DNA from: a gamma proteobacterium HdN1
GTDB taxonomy: Bacteria; Pseudomonadota; Gammaproteobacteria; Pseudomonadales; Ketobacteraceae
Length of the DNA: 64,000 nucleotides
Direction of reading: 5' to 3'
Assembly (NCBI GenBank): GCA_000198515.1
Contig: FP929140.1
Location: forward strand, 470,527-534,526
Part shown: one piece after another, positions 26,406 to 55,013 of the stretch
Position numbering within the stretch: position 1 is the first letter of the stretch
How the letters are laid out: every line of letters starts with the position of its first letter
Notes under the pieces: generated by a model
Told to the model about the DNA's origin: nothing
What the model saw: the letters and a program-made list of their open reading frames with translations, nothing else
The model's database searches: none
Program-made: the position numbers and the translations under genes

Positions 26406-27787
26406 ATGTATCCCGCTTTTCATCAGCTGATGGCTCTTTACCAGCTAACGGCTCTTTGTCACCCACAGCGCAAGCGACCTTGCTGTTGACCAGCTATTTC
26501 TCAAAAGCCAGCAGCGAAAGCGCAAAGCCGTTGACCAATGCGGAATGGGGTCGCTTTGCCTTGTGGTTAAAGGAAAAGGCCACCACACCTGCCGACCTGT
26601 TGGTGAGCGATCCGAAAGCCTTGCTGCAAGGGTGGCACGATGCGCGTATCAGCGCGGAGCGAATTATTAAATTGCTGAACCGTGGCCACAGCCTTGCACT
26701 CGCCATGGAAAAATGGCAACGGGCTGGCCTCTGGGTAGTGACCCGCTCTGATCCAGAATATCCAAAGCGCTTAAAGCAGCGGCTGAAAACAGATTCCCCG
26801 CCAGTGCTGTTTGGTTGTGGTAACAAAGCCTTATTGAATACCGGAGGCTTGGCGGTTATTGGCTCGCGCAATGCCAGTGAGGCTGATTTGGCTTTTACCG
26901 ACCAAGTGGGTGCCAAAGCAGCAAAAGAGGGTATTGCCATTGTCTCTGGTGGTGCTCGGGGTGTCGATGAAACGGCAATGCTGGGTGCTATGAAACAAGG
27001 TGGTGTGGTGATCGGCGTGATGGCCGATAGCCTGCTAAAAGCAGCGACCAGCAGTAAGTGGCGCAAAGGCTTGATGGATGATCATGCCGTGTTGGTATCG
27101 CCTTTTTATCCAGAGGCAGGATTCAGTGCTGGAAATGCCATGGCCCGCAATAAATACATCTATTGCCTGGCAGACAGCTCTCTGGTGATTCATTCGGGCA
27201 AAAAAGGCGGCACGCTAAACGGTGCGGAAGAAAATCTGAAAAAAGCATGGGTACCGCTGTGGGTTAAGCAGACAACGGACAAAGATGCGGCCAATGCTGA
27301 TTTGGTCACCAAAGGTGGCCGTTGGCTGGAGGCTGATACTCAAGCCTTCAAGATTGCGGAATTAATGTGCAATGAAGGTGGGCCTGTGAATCAGGTGAAG
27401 GAACAAATGGGCGATCTCTTTTCCATGCCTGCACAGCCCGAATTGTTTTTTGAGCCTGAATCTAATCCTGAGCCAGAATCTGGGCCTGAAGAAGTTATAG
27501 AGTCAGAGCGCGAGATAGTCGTTAGCGAAAGCCAGACAAAGATTCAGGCTATTCCAGAGCAGACTGCCGAAAGCGAAGCTGCCCCATCAGGCCCTGTCGA
27601 TTTCTATCAGATGTTTATCTCCGAACTTCAACACTTGGCTGAAAAGCCAGTAACCGTTGATGCGCTGATTGAAAGCACTCAGCTTAATAAATCTCAGTTA
27701 ACTGAATGGCTGAAACGAGCTGTTGATGATGAGCAAGTAAAGAAGCTCAATCGCCCTGTACGCTATCAAGTTAAGAACAAGAAATAG
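26402..27787 (+). CDS. DprA/Smf-like protein (SLOG-type Rossmann fold)
   Basis: 461 aa; its ATG overlaps the RecQ-like stop (ATGA). The central DprA fold is marked by LAVIGSRNASEADLAFT and IVSGGARGVDETAMLGAM. A Glu/Pro-rich linker (residues about 345-400) leads to a small C-terminal winged-helix-like domain (DALIESTQLNKSQLTEW). Chromosomal DprA loads RecA on incoming single-stranded DNA. Members in defence loci may bind nucleotide signals or DNA ends. Tight coupling to a RecQ-phosphoribosyltransferase implies that the two act together. It is longer than housekeeping DprA and divergent in its N-terminus. Confidence 0.8.
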   Translation: MNVSRFSSADGSLPANGSLSPTAQATLLLTSYFSKASSESAKPLTNAEWGRFALWLKEKATTPADLLVSDPKALLQGWHDARISAERIIKLLNRGHSLALAMEKWQRAGLWVVTRSDPEYPKRLKQRLKTDSPPVLFGCGNKALLNTGGLAVIGSRNASEADLAFTDQVGAKAAKEGIAIVSGGARGVDETAMLGAMKQGGVVIGVMADSLLKAATSSKWRKGLMDDHAVLVSPFYPEAGFSAGNAMARNKYIYCLADSSLVIHSGKKGGTLNGAEENLKKAWVPLWVKQTTDKDAANADLVTKGGRWLEADTQAFKIAELMCNEGGPVNQVKEQMGDLFSMPAQPELFFEPESNPEPESGPEEVIESEREIVVSESQTKIQAIPEQTAESEAAPSGPVDFYQMFISELQHLAEKPVTVDALIESTQLNKSQLTEWLKRAVDDEQVKKLNRPVRYQVKNKK

Positions 27788-27799
27788 AGGGATTTGCTC

Positions 27800-30700
27800 A
27801 TGGCCATGACTGAAGAAACCCTAGTTCAGGAAGTCACCGCAGACTACTTGCTGAATCAGTTACATTGGGATGAATCTGTACTTGGCATGTATGAAAAGCT
27901 GGGCAAGGAAGGTGATTTAGGGCGGCTTTCAGAGCAAGAGGTGGTGTTAACCCGCTATTTGGGCGAGAAACTGATAGAGCTCAACCCTGGCTTGCCGGAT
28001 GTCGCCTACCAGGAGGCATTGCGCGTGGTCTGTGAGATGCCAGCATCCACCAATATTGTTGCCGTGAATAAGGAGAAATACTCCCTTCATAAGAATGGCG
28101 TAGAGGTGAGCTTCCATAACGACAAAGGTGAACGGGTAAAGAAACGGCTTCGCCTGTTTGATTTTGACAACTACGAAAACAATCACTTTTTACTGGTCAG
28201 AGAGTTTTGGATCAAAGGCGATATTTATCGTCGCAGAGCAGACCTTGCGGGCTTTGTGAATGGTATTCCGCTGCTGTTTATGGAGGTGAAAAACGTTCAC
28301 AAGGATATCCGTGCTGCCTATGAGCAAAATCTTGCGGACTACAAAGACACCGTCCCGCACCTGTTTTATCACAACGCCTTTATTATCTTGGGCAATGGTA
28401 TTGACGCCAAGATTGGCTCCGTTTCGAGTAAATTTGAGCATTTCAATGACTGGAAGCGATTGAAAGAGAATGAACCAGGCGTTGTGGATATGGAGACCTT
28501 GCTGAAGGGAACTTGCTCTAAGCCCAACCTTATGGACATCTTTGAAAACTTCACCTTGTTTGACCAGAGCTCTGGCCGTTTGGTGAAAATCGTTGCCCGC
28601 AATCACCAATACCTCGGTGTTATCCGTGCAATTGATGCCGTTGTTAATCGAGGTGAGCGTTTGGGTAAATTGGGGGTTTTCTGGCATACTCAGGGTTCTG
28701 GAAAGTCCTATTCGATTGTCTTTTTCGCTCAGATGGTGCATCGAAAACTGGGTGGGAACTATACCTTTGTAGTGCTGACTGACCGAGAAGATCTCGATAC
28801 ACAGATTTATAAAACCTTTGCAGGCTGTGGCTTGGTCGACAACGATAAAGACCCGTGCCGCGCCGATAGTGGTAAAGACCTTAAGGCGCTGATCGGCCAG
28901 CAAAAAGCTTTTGTGTTCACCCTCATTCAAAAATTTAACGAAAAAGTCGACCCTAAAAAGCCTTATTCCGAGCGCGACGACATTATCGTCATCACCGACG
29001 AAGCTCACCGCACACAATATGGCACCTTGTCGCTAAACATGCGCAACGCCTTGCCCAATGCCAGCTTTATCGGCTTCACCGGAACGCCATTATTTAAAGA
29101 TGATGAAATAACCAAGAAGGTTTTTGGTGATTACATCTCTACCTATGACTTTCAGCGGGCTGTCGAAGATAAGGCGACAGTGCCCTTGTACTACGATGCC
29201 CGTGGTGAAGAGTTAGTGTTTACCGATGAGGATGGCAATGAGCATACGGTTGCGGACCCCAAAGGCATCAATGAGCGCATAGCGGAAAAGCTGGATGAGT
29301 TGGAAATTGAGGATGTAGACGTTCAGCAAAGGTTGGAGCGAGAGTTGAAGCGTGATTATCACATCATCACTGCAACCAGCCGACTGGATCAGATAGCACG
29401 TGACTTTGTGACTCATTATGCCAACGCTTGGGAAACCGGCAAGGCGATGTTTGTGTGCCTCGACAAGATCACTTGTGTACGGATGCACAAATTGATCAAT
29501 TTTTACTGGCAACAGGAAATTAAAACCAAAGAAAAAGCACTTTTGTCGGCTACGGATGAACAGGAGTTGGCCTGGCGAGAGCGCCAATTGGCGTGGATGA
29601 AAGAAACGCTGATGGCAGTTGTGGTCAGTGAAGAGCAAGGTGAAGTTGCCAAGTTCGAAAAATGGGGATTGGATATAAAACCACACCGCCAGTTGCTCAA
29701 AGCCGGATTTGAACTGGCTGATGGCTCTCGACTGGATATGGAGGAAGCCTTTAAATCAAACGAGCACCCATTCAGAGTGGCTGTCGTGTGTGCCATGTGG
29801 TTAACCGGGTTCGATGTGCCAACACTTTCCACCCTTTATTTGGACAAGCCGTTGAAGGCACATACCTTGATGCAAGCCATTGCTAGGGCAAATCGCGTGG
29901 CGGAAGGCAAAAACAATGGTTTGATCGTGGATTACTGCGGAATACTGAAAAACCTGCGTAAAGCCTTGGCGACCTTCGCCGGTGCTAGCGATGAGGGGCA
30001 CGGCGGTGGTGAGGGCGAAAATGAACCAGCCAAGCCTAATGAAGAGTTGCTGGAAAGTCTGAACGAGTCGATCAGCTTTGTAGCCGACTTTTTGCGAAAG
30101 CATGATTTTGAACTAAGCCGGATTATTACAGAAACAGGTTTTGCTAAAAATGCAGCGATTGCTCAAGCCAAGGAAATCATCAATCAAAATGACGAAACAC
30201 GGAAACGTTTCGAGGTAATGGCCAGAGAGGTGTTCAACAAGTTTAAAGCCTGCATTAACGTGCCTGGCGTTAATGGTTATCGTGATATGCGTGATGCAAT
30301 CAACGTACTCTATAAGAGTTTGCAGGCAGATAAAGAGAAAGCCGACATCTCCGACATCATGAAAGAGCTGTACGAAATTGTTGCCGGTAGTATCGATACC
30401 ACACATAAAGTCAAAGAGCCGAAACCGGATGGTGATCGAATTTACGATATCAGCAAGATCGATTTTGAACGACTCCGCCAAGAGTTTTCTAGGTCAGAGC
30501 GAAAGAATACTACAGTGCAATCGCTCAAGCACGCGGTTGAGAAGAAGCTAGCCCGGCTCATGATGCAAAATCCGTTACGTACCGATTATCAAGAGCACTA
30601 CGAAAAATTAGTTAAGGAATATAATCAGGAAAAGGATCGCGTTGTTATTGAAAAAACCTTTGAGGCACTGCTAAAACTGAATGAAGAGCTTTCTCATGAA

Positions 30701-47471: not shown

Positions 47472-48743
47472 ATGAATGCAAAGACCCCTGATGATGTGCT
47501 GAACCAGACGGCAAATGAGCAGCGGAAAAGTAAGTGGAAAGATCCAAAGCGCTATAAGTGGCTGTTGAGCCCTGCGCTTCCGGTCATAGGCATCGCGGCT
47601 CTTTCCGCGTATGCCATTGCACCTAAAAAGTTGCGCGCGCTCGCGTGGACCGGCCCTTTGCTAGTGCACGGAGTAATTCCAGCTCTGGATCGCATGATTG
47701 GCGAGGATGAGACGAATCCGCCGGAAGATGCGATTCGTGAGCTTGAGAGCGACCCCTATTATAATCTGATTTCCAAGGCGTTCATCCCGTCACAATGGGT
47801 GATGACCATAATAGGTGCGTGGCTTGCGACTCGCAAAAATGTACCGATGATGGATCGCGTGGGTCTAACGCTTTCAGTGGGGGCGCTCAATGGGATTGCG
47901 ATTGTGACGGGCCATGAATTGGGCCATAAGCACGAGCGTCATAATCGCGTAAGCGCGATGTTTGCGCTCGCACCGACTTTCTACACGCACTTCGCGGTGG
48001 AGCATAACTTTGGCCATCATCGCCGCGTCTCTACTCCAGAAGATCCGGCATCAAGCCGGATGGGCGAGAGTTTCTGGAAATTTTTGCCACGTACCGTGAT
48101 TGAAGGATTCAAGTCAGCTGTTGAAATCGAAACCAAGCGCCTTGAGCGCAAGGGTAAGGGTTTCTGGACTCTTGAAAATGAGTTGTTGCAAGGTTGGGCA
48201 GTAACGGCGGGGTTTGTAGGCCTCACGACGGCGATTTGCGGGCCGCGCGCAATTCCGTTCCTTGTGGCACAAGGAGCTTACGGCGCGAGCCTGCTTGAAG
48301 TCGTAAACTACGTTGAGCATTACGGTTTGTTGCGGCAAAAAGATGAGAATGGCAAATACGAGCGTACGTCTCCAGAACATAGCTGGAATAGCAATTTCGT
48401 TGTCACCAATCTTGTACTTTATCAATTGCAGCGCCATTCAGATCACCATGCATTTCCGACCCGTAGCTTCCAAGCGTTGCGCCACTTCCCTGAAGCGCCG
48501 CAGTTGCCAGGTGGATACGCTTCAATGCTGCTTCCCGCTTATATTCCTTCGTGGTGGTTTGCGTTGATGGATCAGCGCGTGGTAGATCACTATCAAGGTG
48601 ATATTACCAAAGCAAATTTGGATCCGGAACGTCGTGAGGAGCTGATTAAAAAGTGGAGCAAAGTGAGCGAGGCGCAGATTGTTGATTCTGCGGAGGAGGG
48701 ATCACCAGCAGAGGATTCGATGGAGGGTGCTGCTGTTGCTTGA
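47472..48743 (+). CDS. alkB: Alkane 1-monooxygenase (AlkB)
   Basis: 423 aa integral-membrane non-haem di-iron hydroxylase. Histidine boxes: HELGHKHERH from residue 148, EHNFGHH from 177, and LQRHSDHHA near residue 316; the extra NYVEHYG motif is also present. About six hydrophobic segments are seen. It hydroxylates medium-chain n-alkanes at the terminal carbon using rubredoxin and rubredoxin reductase, neither of which is encoded nearby. An acidic, low-complexity C-terminal tail follows the catalytic core. It is divergent from the AraC regulator and convergent with the CrcZ-like RNA. Confidence 0.95.
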   Translation: MNAKTPDDVLNQTANEQRKSKWKDPKRYKWLLSPALPVIGIAALSAYAIAPKKLRALAWTGPLLVHGVIPALDRMIGEDETNPPEDAIRELESDPYYNLISKAFIPSQWVMTIIGAWLATRKNVPMMDRVGLTLSVGALNGIAIVTGHELGHKHERHNRVSAMFALAPTFYTHFAVEHNFGHHRRVSTPEDPASSRMGESFWKFLPRTVIEGFKSAVEIETKRLERKGKGFWTLENELLQGWAVTAGFVGLTTAICGPRAIPFLVAQGAYGASLLEVVNYVEHYGLLRQKDENGKYERTSPEHSWNSNFVVTNLVLYQLQRHSDHHAFPTRSFQALRHFPEAPQLPGGYASMLLPAYIPSWWFALMDQRVVDHYQGDITKANLDPERREELIKKWSKVSEAQIVDSAEEGSPAEDSMEGAAVA

Positions 48744-49048
48744 TCAGGCTTTTTAGGCATCTGTAGGTTTTTGAAGGCTTCTGTAAGTTGCAATAAGCCG
48801 CCGCTAGATCGTCCAATATCGAAAGGGAATCCTGCTCGATATTGGGCGACATCCGAGCTCTATCTACATATCAAGCTCTACGATATTCCGCGTATCTTTG
48901 CGAAATTCGTAAACGCCCTTAAATCAGCATCTTCCCCCACCCTGCACTGTCGCGGCAAGCTTCTGTTTTCATCCACAGCGGGCAAAAAGCATGAGCAAGC
49001 CCTGTGTGCTTTCCCTGTGCATCAAGGCTGGCTGATCACGTAGAAATC
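48744..49048. other. Gap between alkB and the CrcZ-like RNA terminator
   Basis: About 305 bp with no supportable gene; a 90-codon plus-strand frame (48771-49043) has unusual composition and no family features. It contains the inverted repeat CCAATATCGA (48813-48822) / TCGATATTGG (48836-48845), extendable to 12 bp with one mismatch. This could be an mRNA 3' stem-loop of alkB or a protein site. Confidence 0.4.
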
Positions 49049-49049
49049 A

Positions 49050-49074
49050 AAAAGGGAGGCAATGCCTCCCTTTT
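49050..49074. terminator. Bidirectional terminator between alkB and the CrcZ-like RNA
   Basis: AAAAGGGAGGC pairs with GCCTCCCTTTT across a 3-nt loop. A and T runs flank the stem on both sides, so it can stop alkB transcription from the left and the minus-strand RNA from the right. Confidence 0.88.
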
Positions 49075-49082
49075 ATAATTCG

Positions 49083-49108
49083 CGAGGGTGGGGCTAACCC
49101 CACCCTCG
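49083..49108. repeat. 11-bp GC-rich hairpin near the 3' end of the CrcZ-like RNA
   Basis: CGAGGGTGGGG (49083-49093) and CCCCACCCTCG (49098-49108) pair perfectly across CTAA. In the minus-strand RNA it lies just before the terminator hairpin and would protect the 3' end or form a second terminator stem. Confidence 0.8.
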
Positions 49109-49878
49109 TAGTATGTGCCGACTCTTTTTGTTGTTTTCGCAGTTTTTATTTTTGTTGCGCTGATTTTGTTATGGTTAGGATTTTATTGTTGTTTTTCAGA
49201 AGTTTTTCTTGTTATTCGTAATTTATTATTGTTAGCGTTTCTTGTTGTTTTTTATCGCGTGTTTCTTTTAGCGTTTTTTGTTGTTCTTGTTGTGTTGTGC
49301 TTATCTTATTGTTTTTAGCGTATCTTTTTCTTTGCGTCGTTTTGCTGCGTTTCGACCAGTGTGGCAGTTGGCTAGATCCGGAAGCTGCAAGTTATAGTTG
49401 TTCTGCGCAGTTCCTGCCTTTTGGCGCCTTGGGTAGCCACAATAAAATCTGATCTTTGTCGCCCGCTATGCTTTATTTTGTTCTTCTTGTTAGCAATCAG
49501 GGGTGATCGTTTTTTGTTGTTGTGTTGGTGTTTTTCTTGTTGTTATCAATTTGTCGCGCTGTCTTTGAGGCTTTTTGTTTTTGTTATCGCCTGTTTGACG
49601 GTTGTCTCTTTTTCTTATTGTTTTTGAAGCAGATTTCTTATTGTTTTAGGGTGGTTCTTATTGTTGTTTTTATGAACCTGTTTTTGTGAAGCAGGTGTGT
49701 GTCGCTGTTTTTTGTTCTTGTTATAAAAGCTCGTTTTTCTCGGTATCTTTGTTCTTGTTATGTTCTGAAGCCTTTGTTCTTGTTGTTATCGTTTTTCTTG
49801 TTCTTGTGTAGGCGTTCATCGAGTCTTCATGTTACCGAGCTTTTTAATAGTTGTTTTTCCCGGTTACGCCCAATACAT

Positions 49879-49894
49879 AGCAGGTTGCGTGCCA
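49879..49894 (-). promoter_or_regulatory. Sigma-54 promoter of the CrcZ-like RNA
   Basis: Read on the minus strand: TGGCAC-GCAAC-CTGCT. The invariant GG (-24) and GC (-12) are exactly 10 bp apart, and TGGCAC matches the -24 consensus fully. The predicted start is about 49868. An A/T-rich stretch (49897-49935) upstream could be bent by IHF. Confidence 0.85.
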
Positions 49895-49939: not shown

Positions 49940-50072
49940 TGTTACGGAGTGTAAGTAACGGAAATAGTCAAGAATCTGTTACCTGAACCGTGGCTGAGTG
50001 TTCCTGTATACCGGTAACACGGTAACGTTCCCGGTAACACGTAGGGACGATAGTGCCAGTTTTTGGGTAACA
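49940..50072 (-). promoter_or_regulatory. Array of GTTAC/GTAAC half-sites upstream of the CrcZ-like RNA, candidate CbrB enhancer
   Basis: Seven half-sites in 133 bp: TGTTAC at 49940 and 49977, and GTAAC at 49955, 50014, 50022, 50034 and 50067. Two GTAACA copies at 50014 and 50034 are 20 bp apart. They lie 45-190 bp upstream of the sigma-54 promoter, the position expected for an enhancer-binding activator. The nearest such activator is CbrB. I recall similar GTTAC-type sites being proposed for CbrB in Pseudomonas but cannot verify it here. Confidence 0.6.
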
Positions 50073-50300: not shown

Positions 50301-50350
50301 GTTTCACAAAACATTGGCGGCGGTTTTTTGTCGCCAATGTTTTGTGAAAC
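50301..50350. repeat. Perfect 19-bp inverted repeat just after cbrB
   Basis: GTTTCACAAAACATTGGCG (50301-50319) and its exact complement (50332-50350) enclose a 12-nt loop, 10 bp after the cbrB stop (minus strand). No T run follows on the minus strand, so it may be a rho-independent-like 3' stem, an RNA stability element or a recognition site. The loop on the cbrB mRNA side is A-rich (ACAAAAAACCGC). Confidence 0.85.
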
Positions 50351-50359
50351 TGTGATGCG

Positions 50360-51796
50360 CTAAGCACCAGAGGCTGCGTTGCTGCCCCGCAGCTGCATTT
50401 TTCTGCGTGGAATTCCGAGGCGCTGGCGGCGTTCCCACAGGCATTTTCGGCTGATGCCCAGTTTTTGCGCGAGTTCGGTTTCCGTCATGTGGTGCTGATG
50501 TTCTAGCACAAAGCGCTGGAAGTAATCTTCCAAGGCTACATCTTCTTGTGGCTCCCCGTTGACGGCGGAGGTGGGGGGGAGAGGTTGGGTGTCTTGTTGG
50601 GTGAAGGGATCGTTGAACGCTTGATTCCGCAGCGGTGAATCCCGATCAGGTTCGATTGCCAAGAGTTCTGGGGTGATGGTGTTACTGTCGCAAAGAATAA
50701 CGGCACGCTCAATCGCGTTTTCCAGTTCGCGTACATTGCCCGGCCAAGAATACTGCCGAATGGCTTGAATGGTTGCGTCGGTGAGCTGCATGTCACCGTG
50801 ATTCATGCGCTGTGTGGTGCGAATCAGAAGCTCGCGTGCGAGTTTTTCAATGTCGTCGCCTCGTTCGCGCAGCGGTGGTAGGTAGAGTTCCACGACATGC
50901 AGACGATAATATAAGTCTTCGCGGAATTTGCGCGCGCGTGCGAGCATTTTTAAGTCGCGGTGAGTCGCGGCAATCAGCCGCACATCAACATTCTTGGCAT
51001 GAACGGCACCGACGCGGCGGATTTCTTTCTCCTGCAGCAATCGCAGTAGCCGCGCTTGTGCATCTAAGGGGAGTTCGCCAATCTCATCCAGAAACAGTGT
51101 GCCGCCGTCTGCGGCTTCCACGAGGCCCTTGCGCGCGGAGGTCGCGCCGGTAAAAGCACCTTTTTCGTGGCCGAATAGTTCGGCCTCAATTAGCGTTTCG
51201 GGGATCGCGGCGCAGTTCACTGAGATCATCGGGCCGTTGGCGCGCAAGCTTTGTGCATGCAGGGCGCGCGCAACGAGCTCTTTTCCGGTACCGGATTCGC
51301 CGCGTATTAGTACGGTGCTGTCAGTTGGGGAGACTTTGCTGATTTTACGAAATAGCTCTTGCATCGGCGCGCATTCGCCGATCATTCCAGAGGTTGGGTA
51401 GTCACGGTTTACTGTGCTGCGGAGCGCGGTGTTCTCGCGTTCTAGCGCTTTTTCTTTCAAAATACGCTCAATCGACATGAGCATTTCATCATGGTCAAAA
51501 GGCTTAGAGATGTAGTCAACTGCCCCCATTTTCATGGCGTCTACCGCAGATTTGAGGCTGGCGAAGCTGGTCATCACGAGAACGGGTGTGCCTTCTGCCA
51601 GCGGGATAATATCGGTGCCGGGGGCGCCAGGTAGCCGCAGATCGGTGATGATCAGATCAAAGTTGCTGAGCTGAAACTGGCTGCTCGCGTCGCCCACGCT
51701 GCCGGCTTCGTCCACTTTATATTTGTTGCGCTCCAGCAAGCGTTTGAGTGAATGCCGGATGATGCTTTCGTCTTCGATGATCAGAATATGAGCCAT
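50360..51796 (-). CDS. cbrB: CbrB, sigma-54-dependent response regulator
   Basis: 478 aa from ATG 51796, chosen because AGGAG ends 5 bp upstream; an in-frame GTG is at 51802. Receiver domain with phospho-Asp in DLIITDLRLPG (residues 1-120). AAA+ sigma-54 activator domain with Walker A GESGTGKELVA and GAFTGA. C-terminal Fis-type helix-turn-helix (TETELAQKLGISRKCLWERR). It pairs with CbrA and controls use of amino acids and poor carbon sources, in Pseudomonas mainly by activating crcZ. Here the CrcZ-like RNA lies directly downstream. It has its own candidate promoter region overlapping the cbrA end. Confidence 0.95.
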   Translation of the reverse strand: MAHILIIEDESIIRHSLKRLLERNKYKVDEAGSVGDASSQFQLSNFDLIITDLRLPGAPGTDIIPLAEGTPVLVMTSFASLKSAVDAMKMGAVDYISKPFDHDEMLMSIERILKEKALERENTALRSTVNRDYPTSGMIGECAPMQELFRKISKVSPTDSTVLIRGESGTGKELVARALHAQSLRANGPMISVNCAAIPETLIEAELFGHEKGAFTGATSARKGLVEAADGGTLFLDEIGELPLDAQARLLRLLQEKEIRRVGAVHAKNVDVRLIAATHRDLKMLARARKFREDLYYRLHVVELYLPPLRERGDDIEKLARELLIRTTQRMNHGDMQLTDATIQAIRQYSWPGNVRELENAIERAVILCDSNTITPELLAIEPDRDSPLRNQAFNDPFTQQDTQPLPPTSAVNGEPQEDVALEDYFQRFVLEHQHHMTETELAQKLGISRKCLWERRQRLGIPRRKMQLRGSNAASGA

Positions 51797-51859
51797 TGCC
51801 ACTCCTGCTCTTCATAGATGGGGCGCTGATTACAGATGGAGCGCTGGGCATCGCTTCGA

Positions 51860-51879: not shown

Positions 51880-51950
51880 TGTTACCGTGCACGAACTATG
51901 ATGTTACCTGTGTTACCGGTAAAAGGGAACTAGGCAGTGTAACGGTAACA
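51880..51950 (-). promoter_or_regulatory. Second GTTAC/GTAAC half-site cluster, upstream of cbrB
   Basis: TGTTAC at 51880, 51902 and 51911, and GTAAC at 51939 and 51945, including the palindrome TTACCGGTAA at 51913-51922. The cluster overlaps the 3' end of cbrA. It matches the motif set upstream of the CrcZ-like RNA, which suggests CbrB autoregulation. Confidence 0.55.
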
Positions 51951-54847
51951 CGTGTTCCTGTTCCGTTTTCGTGTATGGGGCTGGCAATGCTGATTTGGCC
52001 GAAGTGTTCTTCCACCATGGTGTAAACCAGTGCCATGCCAAGTCCGGTGCCTTTGCCGGGCTCTTTTGTGGTTACGAAAGGCTCGAAGATCCGCTCCACC
52101 AGTTCCGGTGGGATGCCGCTGCCATGGTCTTCAACGTGAGTGATCACGCTGTGTTCCGATATTTGGCTGTAAATACGGATTGTTGTGCCCGGTGCGCTTG
52201 CATCACGGGCATTTCCTAATAGATTGATGAAAACTTGGGCAAGTTTTTGGGCGTCGCCCGTGACCCAGTGGGCTGAATCGCAATCGTTTTGGAACCGGTA
52301 TTCCGCGTTTTCCTTGTTTAGGTAGAGAAGATCTATGGCTTCTTGGACAACCACTTGCAAATGCACGGGTTCAAACTCGGTTTGGCGGGGGCCGCTGTGA
52401 CTGAAACTCACTAGGGAATGCACAATGCGTGAAATGCGCTTCGTCTGGTCGATAATTTGGTCGGCAGCCCAGAGCGTTTCGTGATCCTCGCTTTCTTCGC
52501 GGAGGTTTTGGGCAAGACAGGCAATGCCGGTGACTGGGTTGCCGATCTCGTGTGCGACGCCTGCCGCAAGGCGGCCGATGGAGGCAAGTCGTTCGGAGTG
52601 GGTAAGCTTTTGCTCCAATAGCCGCATTTCGGTCATGTCTTCCAGCACCACTACCCAGCCACTCTGTTGCAGAGTAGTGCCTTCTACTTGGATCAGCGCT
52701 TTGTGGCAGGAGAGCCAGCGGGGTAAGCCTCGGTGTTCAATCTTGATTTGCTGAGTGGTGGTGTCGCTGTTGAGAAATTCAACGATGAGTGAACCCCATG
52801 GCGGTGTAACGCTGGTGATGTGGGAGCCGACGATCTGGGCGGCATCTACCTCGGTCAGCGTTTCGATGGCTTTGTTCCAGCCGACGACTTCGCCATCGCT
52901 GCCAAGCGAGCACACGCCAATCGGAAGGTCTTGCAGGGTGCGGCGGTGAAAGCGGCGCAGGCTGTCTAATTCCGCCGCGAGGCCGGTAAGCTTGTCTTGA
53001 TAGTCCTCTAGGCGGCTCTCGATAAAGTGGATGTCTTTGAGGGAGGTGTCTTCCGGTTGGATTTCATAGGGCAAGGATTCCTCAATAATGTCGTGTGCAA
53101 CGGAGGGGCCCAGCAATCCAGAAAGGTTGTTTTCGAGCTGATCGCGCAGTCGGCGCAAAGCGTAGGGGCGCATTTCAGTTGTGTCCATCGACAAATCGAC
53201 CAGCGCGAGTTTGACTTCGCGTTCGGCGGTTGCGACTCCGAGAGGCCCGCTGAGGCGTTGGGTGATTTCGTTGACGTTCTTGACAGGCAATTCCCATCGC
53301 ATTGGGCGCCGTAGAGTATCCACGTTACAGGCGCTAGCGGCGTTGATCTCCTCTGGGGAGCTTGGGTTCGCAATTGAGACGATGGCAAATACCAGTGCGT
53401 TCAGAAAAATTGCAAAACTTGCCACCATGTAGCTGTTTTCAGAAGTCGGAAAATGATCATCCAGCAGCAAGGGAATGTTGATGTGGATTTGGAATCCAAA
53501 CAAAACCGGCAATAGCAATACAAAAAACCAGACGCCAAACCCTGCGGTGAGCCCTGCCAAAAAGCCACGGTGGTTGGCGCGCGTCCAGAGCAGAACGCCA
53601 ACCAGGCCAGGAACAAATTGCATTGTCGCAACAAATGAGAGGAACCCTAGCTCGGAAAGACTGTTGCGATTGGCAACTACGAAATAAAAGGCAAATGCGC
53701 TGAGAATGATGGCGGCGATCAAAATGCGTCGCGCCCAGATCAGCCAACTGTAGAGGTTTCGTTGCGTGTTGACAGGGGAGAGTGGCAAAACTAAGTGATT
53801 GAGAAACATCGCGGAGAGCGCGAGCGTGCAGACGATGATCAGTCCACTCGCCGCAGAAAGCCCTGCCATAAATACGATGACAGACAAGAGTTCTTGCTGC
53901 TCGGCGAGTGGAATCATTAGGGTAAGGTAATCAGGCGTATCGGTTTCGAGATTGATTGCTTGAGCACCCCAAACAATGAGCGGTACGAATAACGCTAAGG
54001 CGAGCAGGTAGAGTGGTAACGCCCAGCTTGCAGTAATCAGTGCGCGTGGGTTGATGTTCTCGGTAAAGCTCATATGAAACATGTGTGGCATTACCACAGC
54101 GGCAACAAAAAAGGCCGCGATCAAGCTGCGCCATGGGCCTTCTTGGAGCGGAGAGTAGAGTTGTGTGAGGGCTTCGGGGTGGTGGTCTAACCATTGATTG
54201 ACGCCTACCGGCCCATCAAAAATTCGAAATACAACGTACAAGCCGAGTGCAACCATAGCGCTGAGCTTGACGATGGACTCAAAGGCCATCGCAACCACGA
54301 GCCCTTCGTGCTTTTCGCGCAGCGAGATGTGGCGGGCGCCGAACAAAATGGCAAACAATATGATCGTGGCGCAAAACAAGAACGCGAGGGTGTCGGTGTC
54401 TGCACTGTCATTTAGAACCTGTGCGGAATCGGCCACAGCCTGAATTTGCAGAGCGAGCAGCGGAATTACGCCGATAAACATGCAAAGCGTTACAACAGCA
54501 CCCACGACTGGGCTGCGGTAGCGAAACGCAAATAAATCTGCAAGTGATGCGAGCTGATAGGTGCGAGTGAGGCGCATCATTGGGGCAAGAAGCACTGGCG
54601 CGAGCATGTAGGCGCCAGAGATTCCCAAGTAATAGGCGAGATAGTTGTAGCCGTGCTGATGAGCAAAGCCGACGCTCCCATAAATCGCCCATGCGCTTGC
54701 AAACACACCCAAAGATAATACGTAGGTGGCGGGGTGCCTGACGAGTTTCGACGGCAAATAGCCAAGCTCGGTGATGTAGGCCACCAGAAAAAATATCGCC
54801 AGATAGACGACGCCCATGGAGAAGACTTGAGTCAGGCTAAAACCCAT
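51896..54847 (-). CDS. cbrA: CbrA, sensor histidine kinase with sodium/solute symporter domain
   Basis: 983 aa from ATG 54847 (MGFSLTQVF), the start that matches pseudomonad CbrA; a GTG-type start 7 codons earlier is open. The N-terminal 490 residues form about 13 membrane segments of an SSS (SLC5-like) transporter. A linker and a PAS domain (around 625-735, GVCSLGSDGEVVGWNKAI) follow. HisKA has phospho-His in GVAHEIGNPVTGI, and the HATPase ends with GTGLGMALVYTMVEEHFG. It activates CbrB and in Pseudomonas also takes up histidine. Its start overlaps the end of the small cbrX gene. Confidence 0.95.
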   Translation of the reverse strand: MGFSLTQVFSMGVVYLAIFFLVAYITELGYLPSKLVRHPATYVLSLGVFASAWAIYGSVGFAHQHGYNYLAYYLGISGAYMLAPVLLAPMMRLTRTYQLASLADLFAFRYRSPVVGAVVTLCMFIGVIPLLALQIQAVADSAQVLNDSADTDTLAFLFCATIILFAILFGARHISLREKHEGLVVAMAFESIVKLSAMVALGLYVVFRIFDGPVGVNQWLDHHPEALTQLYSPLQEGPWRSLIAAFFVAAVVMPHMFHMSFTENINPRALITASWALPLYLLALALFVPLIVWGAQAINLETDTPDYLTLMIPLAEQQELLSVIVFMAGLSAASGLIIVCTLALSAMFLNHLVLPLSPVNTQRNLYSWLIWARRILIAAIILSAFAFYFVVANRNSLSELGFLSFVATMQFVPGLVGVLLWTRANHRGFLAGLTAGFGVWFFVLLLPVLFGFQIHINIPLLLDDHFPTSENSYMVASFAIFLNALVFAIVSIANPSSPEEINAASACNVDTLRRPMRWELPVKNVNEITQRLSGPLGVATAEREVKLALVDLSMDTTEMRPYALRRLRDQLENNLSGLLGPSVAHDIIEESLPYEIQPEDTSLKDIHFIESRLEDYQDKLTGLAAELDSLRRFHRRTLQDLPIGVCSLGSDGEVVGWNKAIETLTEVDAAQIVGSHITSVTPPWGSLIVEFLNSDTTTQQIKIEHRGLPRWLSCHKALIQVEGTTLQQSGWVVVLEDMTEMRLLEQKLTHSERLASIGRLAAGVAHEIGNPVTGIACLAQNLREESEDHETLWAADQIIDQTKRISRIVHSLVSFSHSGPRQTEFEPVHLQVVVQEAIDLLYLNKENAEYRFQNDCDSAHWVTGDAQKLAQVFINLLGNARDASAPGTTIRIYSQISEHSVITHVEDHGSGIPPELVERIFEPFVTTKEPGKGTGLGMALVYTMVEEHFGQISIASPIHENGTGTRVTVTLPSSLLPVTQVTS

Positions 54848-55013
54848 CGAGGTCACGGCTCCTTGCAATCCAATAGGTAATGGCGATCAACATGCTCCAG
54901 AACAAAAAGGGTCGGTACCAGACGACGCCGCCGTCAATCCACCATTGCATCAGTGCTGGCGAGAGCACATAGGCGCCGATAATAAAAAGGAGCACCAGTC
55001 GATCAATATACAT
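54837..55013 (-). CDS. cbrX: CbrX, small membrane protein upstream of cbrA
   Basis: 58 aa, ATG 55013 to TAG 54837. The sequence has two hydrophobic segments (residues about 5-20, LVLLFIIGAYVLSPALM; and 35-50, FLFWSMLIAITYW) joined by a short loop with WWIDGGVVWY. The last 11 bp overlap the cbrA start, so translation is likely coupled. A small ORF in the same position is, to my recollection, called cbrX in Pseudomonas putida. The function is unknown; it may assist CbrA insertion or simply set its translation rate. Confidence 0.75.
   Translation of the reverse strand: MYIDRLVLLFIIGAYVLSPALMQWWIDGGVVWYRPFLFWSMLIAITYWIARSRDLDGF

Follow-up and report, generated by a model that had tools for sequence, protein, structure and literature searches.

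A CrcZ-like RNA with 24 A-rich motifs is predicted downstream of cbrB in a gammaproteobacterium outside Pseudomonas

In passages of a 2022 review, the CbrAB-CrcZ arrangement is described as exclusive to Pseudomonas and Azotobacter (PMC8871633), and the abstract of a further paper likewise confines the system to Pseudomonadaceae or Pseudomonads (PMC6296734). The window analysed here, a 64,000-nucleotide (64-kb) stretch of DNA from the gammaproteobacterium HdN1 (positions 470527-534526 of a closed 4,587,455-base genome; family code f1), raises the question of whether this circuit reaches further: does the minus strand at 49048..49868 give rise to an enlarged RNA of the CrcZ kind, as a sequence-only reading had proposed? 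Passages of PMC5073097 report cbrA/cbrB transcripts in a mesopelagic community and leave CrcZ unnamed, which hints at an earlier sign of CbrAB beyond Pseudomonas, while those of PMC9049629 describe CbrB for P. putida only. A report of CrcZ together with Alcanivorax or Marinobacter was not found in the open-licence PMC literature; reports elsewhere are possible.

The candidate RNA has a predicted start at about 49868 and a predicted end at about 49048. As the sequence-only reading had held, no protein gene fits the stretch, the longest overlapping open reading frames spanning 34 aa on the minus and 68 aa on the plus strand; the unit is non-coding. A accounts for 400 of the 821 nt of its minus strand. 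Some twenty A-rich motifs had been claimed for this strand, and we counted 24 non-overlapping copies of AANAANAA, compared to a mean of 8.9 in dinucleotide shuffles, none of which (0/1000) reached 24. In 1230 other 821-nt segments (both strands of the 64 kb in 100-base steps) the highest count was 4. Runs of ARN triplets were similarly frequent, with 19 runs of at least four triplets (shuffle mean 5.2) and 14 of at least five (mean 1.8), each reached by 0/1000 shuffles, and three of at least six (mean 0.6; 22/1000). Under our own delimitation, which runs from 26 nt past the promoter's first base as far as the terminator, the RNA measures 817 nt, with 24 AANAANAA and 49% A.

The runs of at least four triplets are distributed over two arms. 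The 5' A-rich arm (49476..49868, minus) holds 11 of the 19, at RNA positions 64-378, and the 3' A-rich arm (49115..49344, minus) holds eight and ends in a GUCGGCAC box. Between the arms lies a motif-poor central part (49345..49475, minus) with a predicted UGUGGC/GCCACA closure. The predicted unpaired fraction was 0.92 for motif letters, 0.54 for other letters and 0.80 for other A. Short stems had been proposed to separate the motifs; they are predicted, and the RNA as a whole is more stable than its shuffles (z -5.65, 0/20), but the signal is weak within the 5' part (z -2.0) and the central part, which folds no better than shuffles (z -1.25; 21/200 equally stable). The 3' end lies far above shuffles in folding stability (z -6.5) and includes an intrinsic terminator of 11 pairs (49050..49074, minus); terminator-like sites showed no excess in the scan (2 found, 3.1 expected). 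Internal repeats of the RNA are short, or 62-94% alike. A fusion of two tandem copies as its origin was unsupported, the scans showing one sigma-54 promoter and one terminator. No second genomic copy was detected: as a DNA query the RNA matched its own locus and 25 nt from within its terminator palindrome, and the element model described below (R1) found one place in the genome, although a diverged paralogue could escape both searches.

The 3' end also carries a part specific to a clade of the RNA's relatives. The GUCGGCAC box (49115..49122, minus) occurred in 12/12 delimited f1 RNAs and in those of f22 (G035) and f33 (G046), and in 0 of the other 26 genomes when all delimited RNAs were scanned. 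GUCGGCA followed by C is present in all of these f1, f22 and f33 RNAs but that of G011, in which the last base is changed, with an A-rich run before it and a hairpin after it. In an alignment of 14 sequences this GC-rich hairpin (49083..49108, minus) shows two-sided changes in 7/9 pairs; the sequences were selected for GTCGGCA with C or T as the next base, which makes the box's invariance in this alignment partly a matter of construction, unlike its recovery in the scan of all delimited RNAs. Hairpin cells changed on both sides numbered 17, compared to 5.1 in shuffles (0/500 reached 17), and the covariation score was matched by 0/500. Two of the five helix measures were weak, namely the pairs changed on both sides (9/500 shuffles reach 7) and further pair types, which showed no excess (249/500 reach the count). 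Sliding the helix by one lowered the paired cells from 87% to at most 59% and the two-sided cells from 17 to at most 8. Relatedness among the sequences keeps the shuffles from being a strict test. R1 recovered 16/57 genomes at E < 1e-4. Fourteen of these had contributed to its alignment, and two, G006 and G013 (both f1), are independent; it missed one f1 genome, G009, which is 84% complete, and gave four more matches at E 0.01-0.05, one of them a second place in G008. We count the box and hairpin, which appear to be kept as an RNA element, as support for the sponge reading set out below.

This element would also suit an RNA that acts mainly by base pairing, with the GUCGGCAC box as a seed for target mRNAs and the A-rich runs only loading Hfq. 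Such a role would agree with the retention of GUCGGCA in all twelve delimited f1 RNAs while the flanks vary, and with the two f1 genomes that R1 found outside its alignment. A single short box, however, leaves the 19 ARN runs unexplained, and the box was not found in the Pseudomonas loci inspected, whose CrcZ is described as a sponge, and we consider a mainly base-pairing RNA improbable.

The neighbourhood points to a sponge of the CrcZ kind. As had been claimed, the unit is placed downstream of cbrB, on the same strand. This gene (50360..51802, minus) encodes an NtrC-type response regulator and is 65% identical to P. aeruginosa PA7 cbrB; cbrA (51896..54868, minus), for a membrane sensor kinase, is 56% identical to its PA7 counterpart over 910 aligned residues, and the order cbrA-cbrB is that of PA7. 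Pfam identified kinase and PAS domains in CbrA and detected no SSS-symporter domain, and hydropathy gave 12 membrane-like segments. A search of viral contigs with CbrB gave 21 distant relatives at 32-49% identity and was uninformative here. Right after the cbrB stop, at 50301-50350, lies a perfect 19-bp inverted repeat with a 12-nt loop.

A sigma-54 promoter and a terminator had been proposed as the bounds of the RNA. Both were found, the promoter just outside the stretch first assigned to it: TGGCACGCAACCTGCT (49879..49894, minus) has one mismatch to TGGCACGNNNNTTGCW. Within the window the pattern gave nine matches at up to two mismatches where 14.7 were expected and is thus no rarer than chance, so the promoter call draws on place and conservation in addition to the pattern. 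Upstream, on the same strand, follow five CbrB-type subsites, two of the R type (GTAACA; 49940..49945 at -51 and 49977..49982 at -88) and three of the F type (TGTTAC; 50014..50019 at -125, 50034..50039 at -145 and 50067..50072 at -178). Both types are described as non-palindromic, with two to three at each promoter, in passages of PMC6296734. Four TGTTAC/GTAACA sites also occur within 71 bp at the cbrA-cbrB junction (51880-51950), which may reflect autoregulation by CbrB.

A search for relatives downstream of cbrB in other genera had been suggested by the sequence-only reading. CbrB was detected at E <= 1e-100 in 51/57 genomes, and up to 3 kb of downstream sequence was fetched for 50, G013 being omitted with a CbrB match that ends at the contig edge. 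A unit, defined by a sigma-54 promoter with one to three mismatches and one or more motifs in the 150 nt that follow, was found after cbrB in 40/50 genomes and 29/38 families of the order. The 45 promoters carry one mismatch in 23 cases, two in 16 and three in six. At least two CbrB subsites (TGTTAC, or GTAAC followed by A or G) lie within 260 nt upstream of 43/45, with a density of 12.3 per kb in these 260 nt compared to 0.95 per kb elsewhere in the same stretches; at least two subsites are likewise present at 76/80 named loci (best 80 of 587). CbrB ends in an ETELA..LGISRK.LWERR-type sequence, with variations, in 49/50 genomes, the exception being the cut-off protein of G041. The unit had no match in G006, G015 and G041, which are cut short by contig ends, and in G020, G021, G027, G031, G048, G055 and G056; G020 and G056 contain motif clusters and lack a promoter passing the pattern. 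Five genomes (G025, G051, G050, G019, G042) have two tandem units. Tandem sigma-54 units with A-rich motifs after cbrB are seen at loci L091, L095, L098, L105 and L109, which are maybe CrcZ/CrcY-like pairs.

These data bear on the idea that the A-rich region belongs to the cbrB mRNA as a long 3' UTR, or is an A-rich spacer that has no function itself. In favour of it, the region shares the strand of cbrB and lies about 490 bp downstream. The recurrence of a sigma-54 promoter ahead of the unit in those 40 genomes and of subsites at 43 promoters argues against it, and so do the units of G003 and G023 (L085, L112), which are separated from cbrB by about 1.8 and 2.5 kb and still keep promoter, subsites and motifs. 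Taken with the covarying hairpin and the motif excess over shuffles, this makes a mere UTR or spacer very improbable.

Within this survey the window's RNA holds the record, with 24 motifs among the 50 genomes. Its eleven delimited f1 kin have 7-16 motifs in 255-406 nt, and units in other families have 2-16. Among the best 80 of 587 named loci, mostly from Pseudomonas, 64 have exactly six motifs in the first 450 nt, and the highest counts, 9 and 12, belong to MAGs of other groups. Outside f1 the lengths are rough, as the script stops at the first terminator-like hairpin; raw lengths above 817 nt were obtained for G017, G019, G042 and G050, whose low motif number (3-7) and low A content (25-28%) suggest that the script overran the RNA end. 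The 817-nt size is known from one genome, and the 15-genome family set holds no other member of its genus.

The motifs had been called Hfq/Crc-type. The Hfq half of this label fits, as the window's genome encodes Hfq (one match over the TIGR02383 cut-off), but a recognisable Crc is missing. TIGR00633 identifies one protein in this genome (G000), between rph- and pyrE-like genes, the same position as that of Crc in the Pseudomonas-type G034. All seven NEDNDDH nuclease residues are intact in it, and Gly and Ser occupy Crc positions 140 and 196. Its best solved match is 2jc5, a putative exodeoxyribonuclease (E 3e-101), with Crc (4jg3, 4e-76) second, while the control, Crc of G034, matches 4jg3 first (5e-159). 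According to passages of PMC6422490, the Crc variant R140E is repression-deficient and does not co-precipitate with Hfq. In a table of 56 proteins, all 28 whose nuclease site is changed, and which have residues at the relevant columns, possess Arg-Arg at 140-141, and we read these as Crc. The remaining proteins have intact sites except for the fragment in G041; four of them, in G026, G035, G041 and G044, likewise carry Arg-Arg. Given intact-site proteins with Arg-Arg in G035, where Glu occupies position 193, and in three other genomes, some such nucleases might also serve as Crc, which speaks against a clean Crc-less reading. In the rest of f1 (14 genomes), 12 genomes each have a single ExoIII-like match to the G000 protein, at 31-34% identity, and no match at E <= 1e-15 was obtained in G001 (54% complete) or G010; Crc proteins elsewhere scored about 1e-81 to 1e-46 in this search. 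Crc thus appears to be absent from f1, in which G001, G009 and G011 are each less than 90% complete. Several genomes contain both an intact-site nuclease and Crc, which suggests that Crc may stem from a duplication of the nuclease gene. At L131:1483-2316, the crc-locus protein between rph and pyrE is an intact-site nuclease.

Position 25 of Hfq is Phe in the window's genome (L143), and likewise in G002, G003 and G004 (f1), f22, f26 and the Crc-bearing f20 among those checked; it is Tyr in G034 (f21) and G047 (f34). The difference from the Tyr of the Pseudomonas-type G034 counts against the sponge reading, although the Crc-bearing G033 also has Phe. A decoy for a different A-rich-binding protein instead of Hfq would suit a partner set that, with no recognisable Crc, is unlike that of Pseudomonas, but it is hardly credible with Hfq present and ARN triplets being the described ligand of its distal face (passages of PMC4063720 and PMC6422490).

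We also compared motif numbers by Crc status, leaving out G001 and G016 for low completeness, the fragmentary G041, and all genomes in which no RNA had been delimited. For motif number, p was 0.038 and 0.032 in initial comparisons. Motifs per promoter had a median of 9 in six Crc-less families and of 4.75 in 22 Crc-bearing families (p 0.0037; 0.0016 GC-corrected), motif number itself tracking GC (rho -0.64). No difference was seen in runs of at least four ARN triplets (0.16), longest run (0.38), length (0.89) or promoter number (0.22). In a CbrB tree made by a quick method (no bootstrap, 7/47 inner branches starred), f1, f22, f26, f32 and f33, five of the six Crc-less families with an RNA, fall into one clade (SH-aLRT 87), so that the p-values overstate what amounts to about two contrasts. 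We treat the larger number of motifs per promoter in Crc-less families as a lead.

Taken together, our findings suggest that the window most likely encodes a non-coding sponge RNA of the CrcZ type, driven by CbrB and sigma-54. When carbon supply is poor, CbrA/CbrB would activate its sigma-54 promoter, and the RNA would then offer about 19 unpaired ARN-triplet runs, each able to dock the distal face of an Hfq hexamer. Hfq would thereby be removed from A-rich ribosome-binding sites of catabolic mRNAs, and carbon catabolite repression would end. Because no recognisable Crc is encoded in this genome, the RNA would titrate Hfq alone. From the sequence we infer that the RNA is transcribed under CbrB control, binds and titrates Hfq, has a physiological effect and is independent of Crc, and the site number would argue for a greater sponge potency. 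Tentatively, and with less than even confidence, we propose that CbrAB, a CrcZ-type sponge and Hfq-based repression operate without Crc throughout a clade of the order, either from a time before Crc or after its loss, that the sponge was enlarged, most of all here, to titrate Hfq that Crc does not retain on targets, and that the GUCGGCAC box forms another functional part of the RNA, restricted to this clade.

Stronger repression of alkane catabolism, which had been offered as a consequence, found no backing in the neighbouring gene. The convergent gene at 47472-48743 (plus) encodes a fatty-acid-desaturase-family protein, its identity as an alkane hydroxylase being a reading and not a family match; we rejected it as a direct target, as no AANAANAA occurs from -40 to +20 of its start. 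Elsewhere in the window, 5/53 kept open reading frames have a motif near a possible start (raw count), including those for hsdR (27794), an aminotransferase-family protein (56699) and ribosomal L18 (3638). In the hsdR start region (27773-27830), AAGAACAAGAAATAGAGGG extends across the likely ribosome-binding site, and hsdR is a possible Hfq target.

With the unit, its promoter and mostly also its CbrB subsites in 29 of the 38 sampled families, a main circuit of carbon choice seems to be much more widespread than has been reported. The apparently Crc-less clade would provide a natural test of what Crc contributes to Hfq, and the range of 2 to 24 motifs a natural dose series for how the capacity of a sponge RNA is set.

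How does the RNA compare with known systems? The Rfam family CrcZ (RF01675) gave no match at its gathering score of 95 bits; the best score was 23.5 bits (49161-49077, minus; E 7e-4, 1.6-kb search), so we do not file the RNA as a member of RF01675. In the same search, the unrelated Termite-leu obtained a better E-value (49047-49123, plus; 32 bits, cut-off 51; E 1.2e-4), antisense of the two 3' hairpins, which makes the RF01675 match weak evidence. Termite-leu and sraA matches over the terminator were rejected as below their cut-offs, the former being taken as chance. A 194-genome sample of the order, searched under stricter filters, yielded RF01675 matches in 49 genomes at E <= 0.01, nine above the cut-off, with no f1 genome among the 49. 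A CATACT piece common to the RNA and the Rfam consensus was dropped, as it occurs in one of the best 80 of 587 named loci, beyond the RNA. What the RNA does show is a place after cbrB, a promoter with subsites, an excess of predicted-unpaired motifs, a lack of coding capacity and a terminator. The proposal of an enlarged, CrcZ-like, Hfq-sponge-like RNA under sigma-54/CbrB control outside Pseudomonas is supported to this extent, and the RNA should work like CrcZ, being its counterpart in position, promoter, subsites and motifs rather than in sequence.

P. aeruginosa CrcZ, and CrcY/CrcX of other pseudomonads, are alike in place, sigma-54 promoter, CbrB subsites, motif chain and terminator. CrcZ had been said to have about five motifs in roughly 400 nt; passages of PMC4063720 agree on the length (407 nt) and give six A-rich stretches, through which PAO1 CrcZ binds Hfq, a 151-nt piece with three stretches producing three shifted bands. 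Pseudomonas CrcZ-type RNAs measure about 360-407 nt with six motifs, in contrast to 817 nt and 24 motifs here. A scan found neither the box nor its hairpin in the Pseudomonas RNAs inspected (G034, L162, L195), and the window's genome, unlike the setting of Pseudomonas CrcZ, has no recognisable Crc. Azotobacter vinelandii CrcZ and CrcY, sRNAs that govern how strong catabolite repression is (abstract of PMC6292655), also lie outside Pseudomonas sensu stricto and were compared by description alone; A. vinelandii belongs to Pseudomonadaceae and uses Crc-Hfq, whereas the window's genome lacks a recognisable Crc. Also close are the cbrB-linked units of other families (G007, G035, G045, G046 and others), with the same kind of promoter, subsites and motifs; next to their 2-16 motifs each stand the 24 of the window's RNA, and the GUCGGCAC box with its hairpin is common to f1, f22 and f33.
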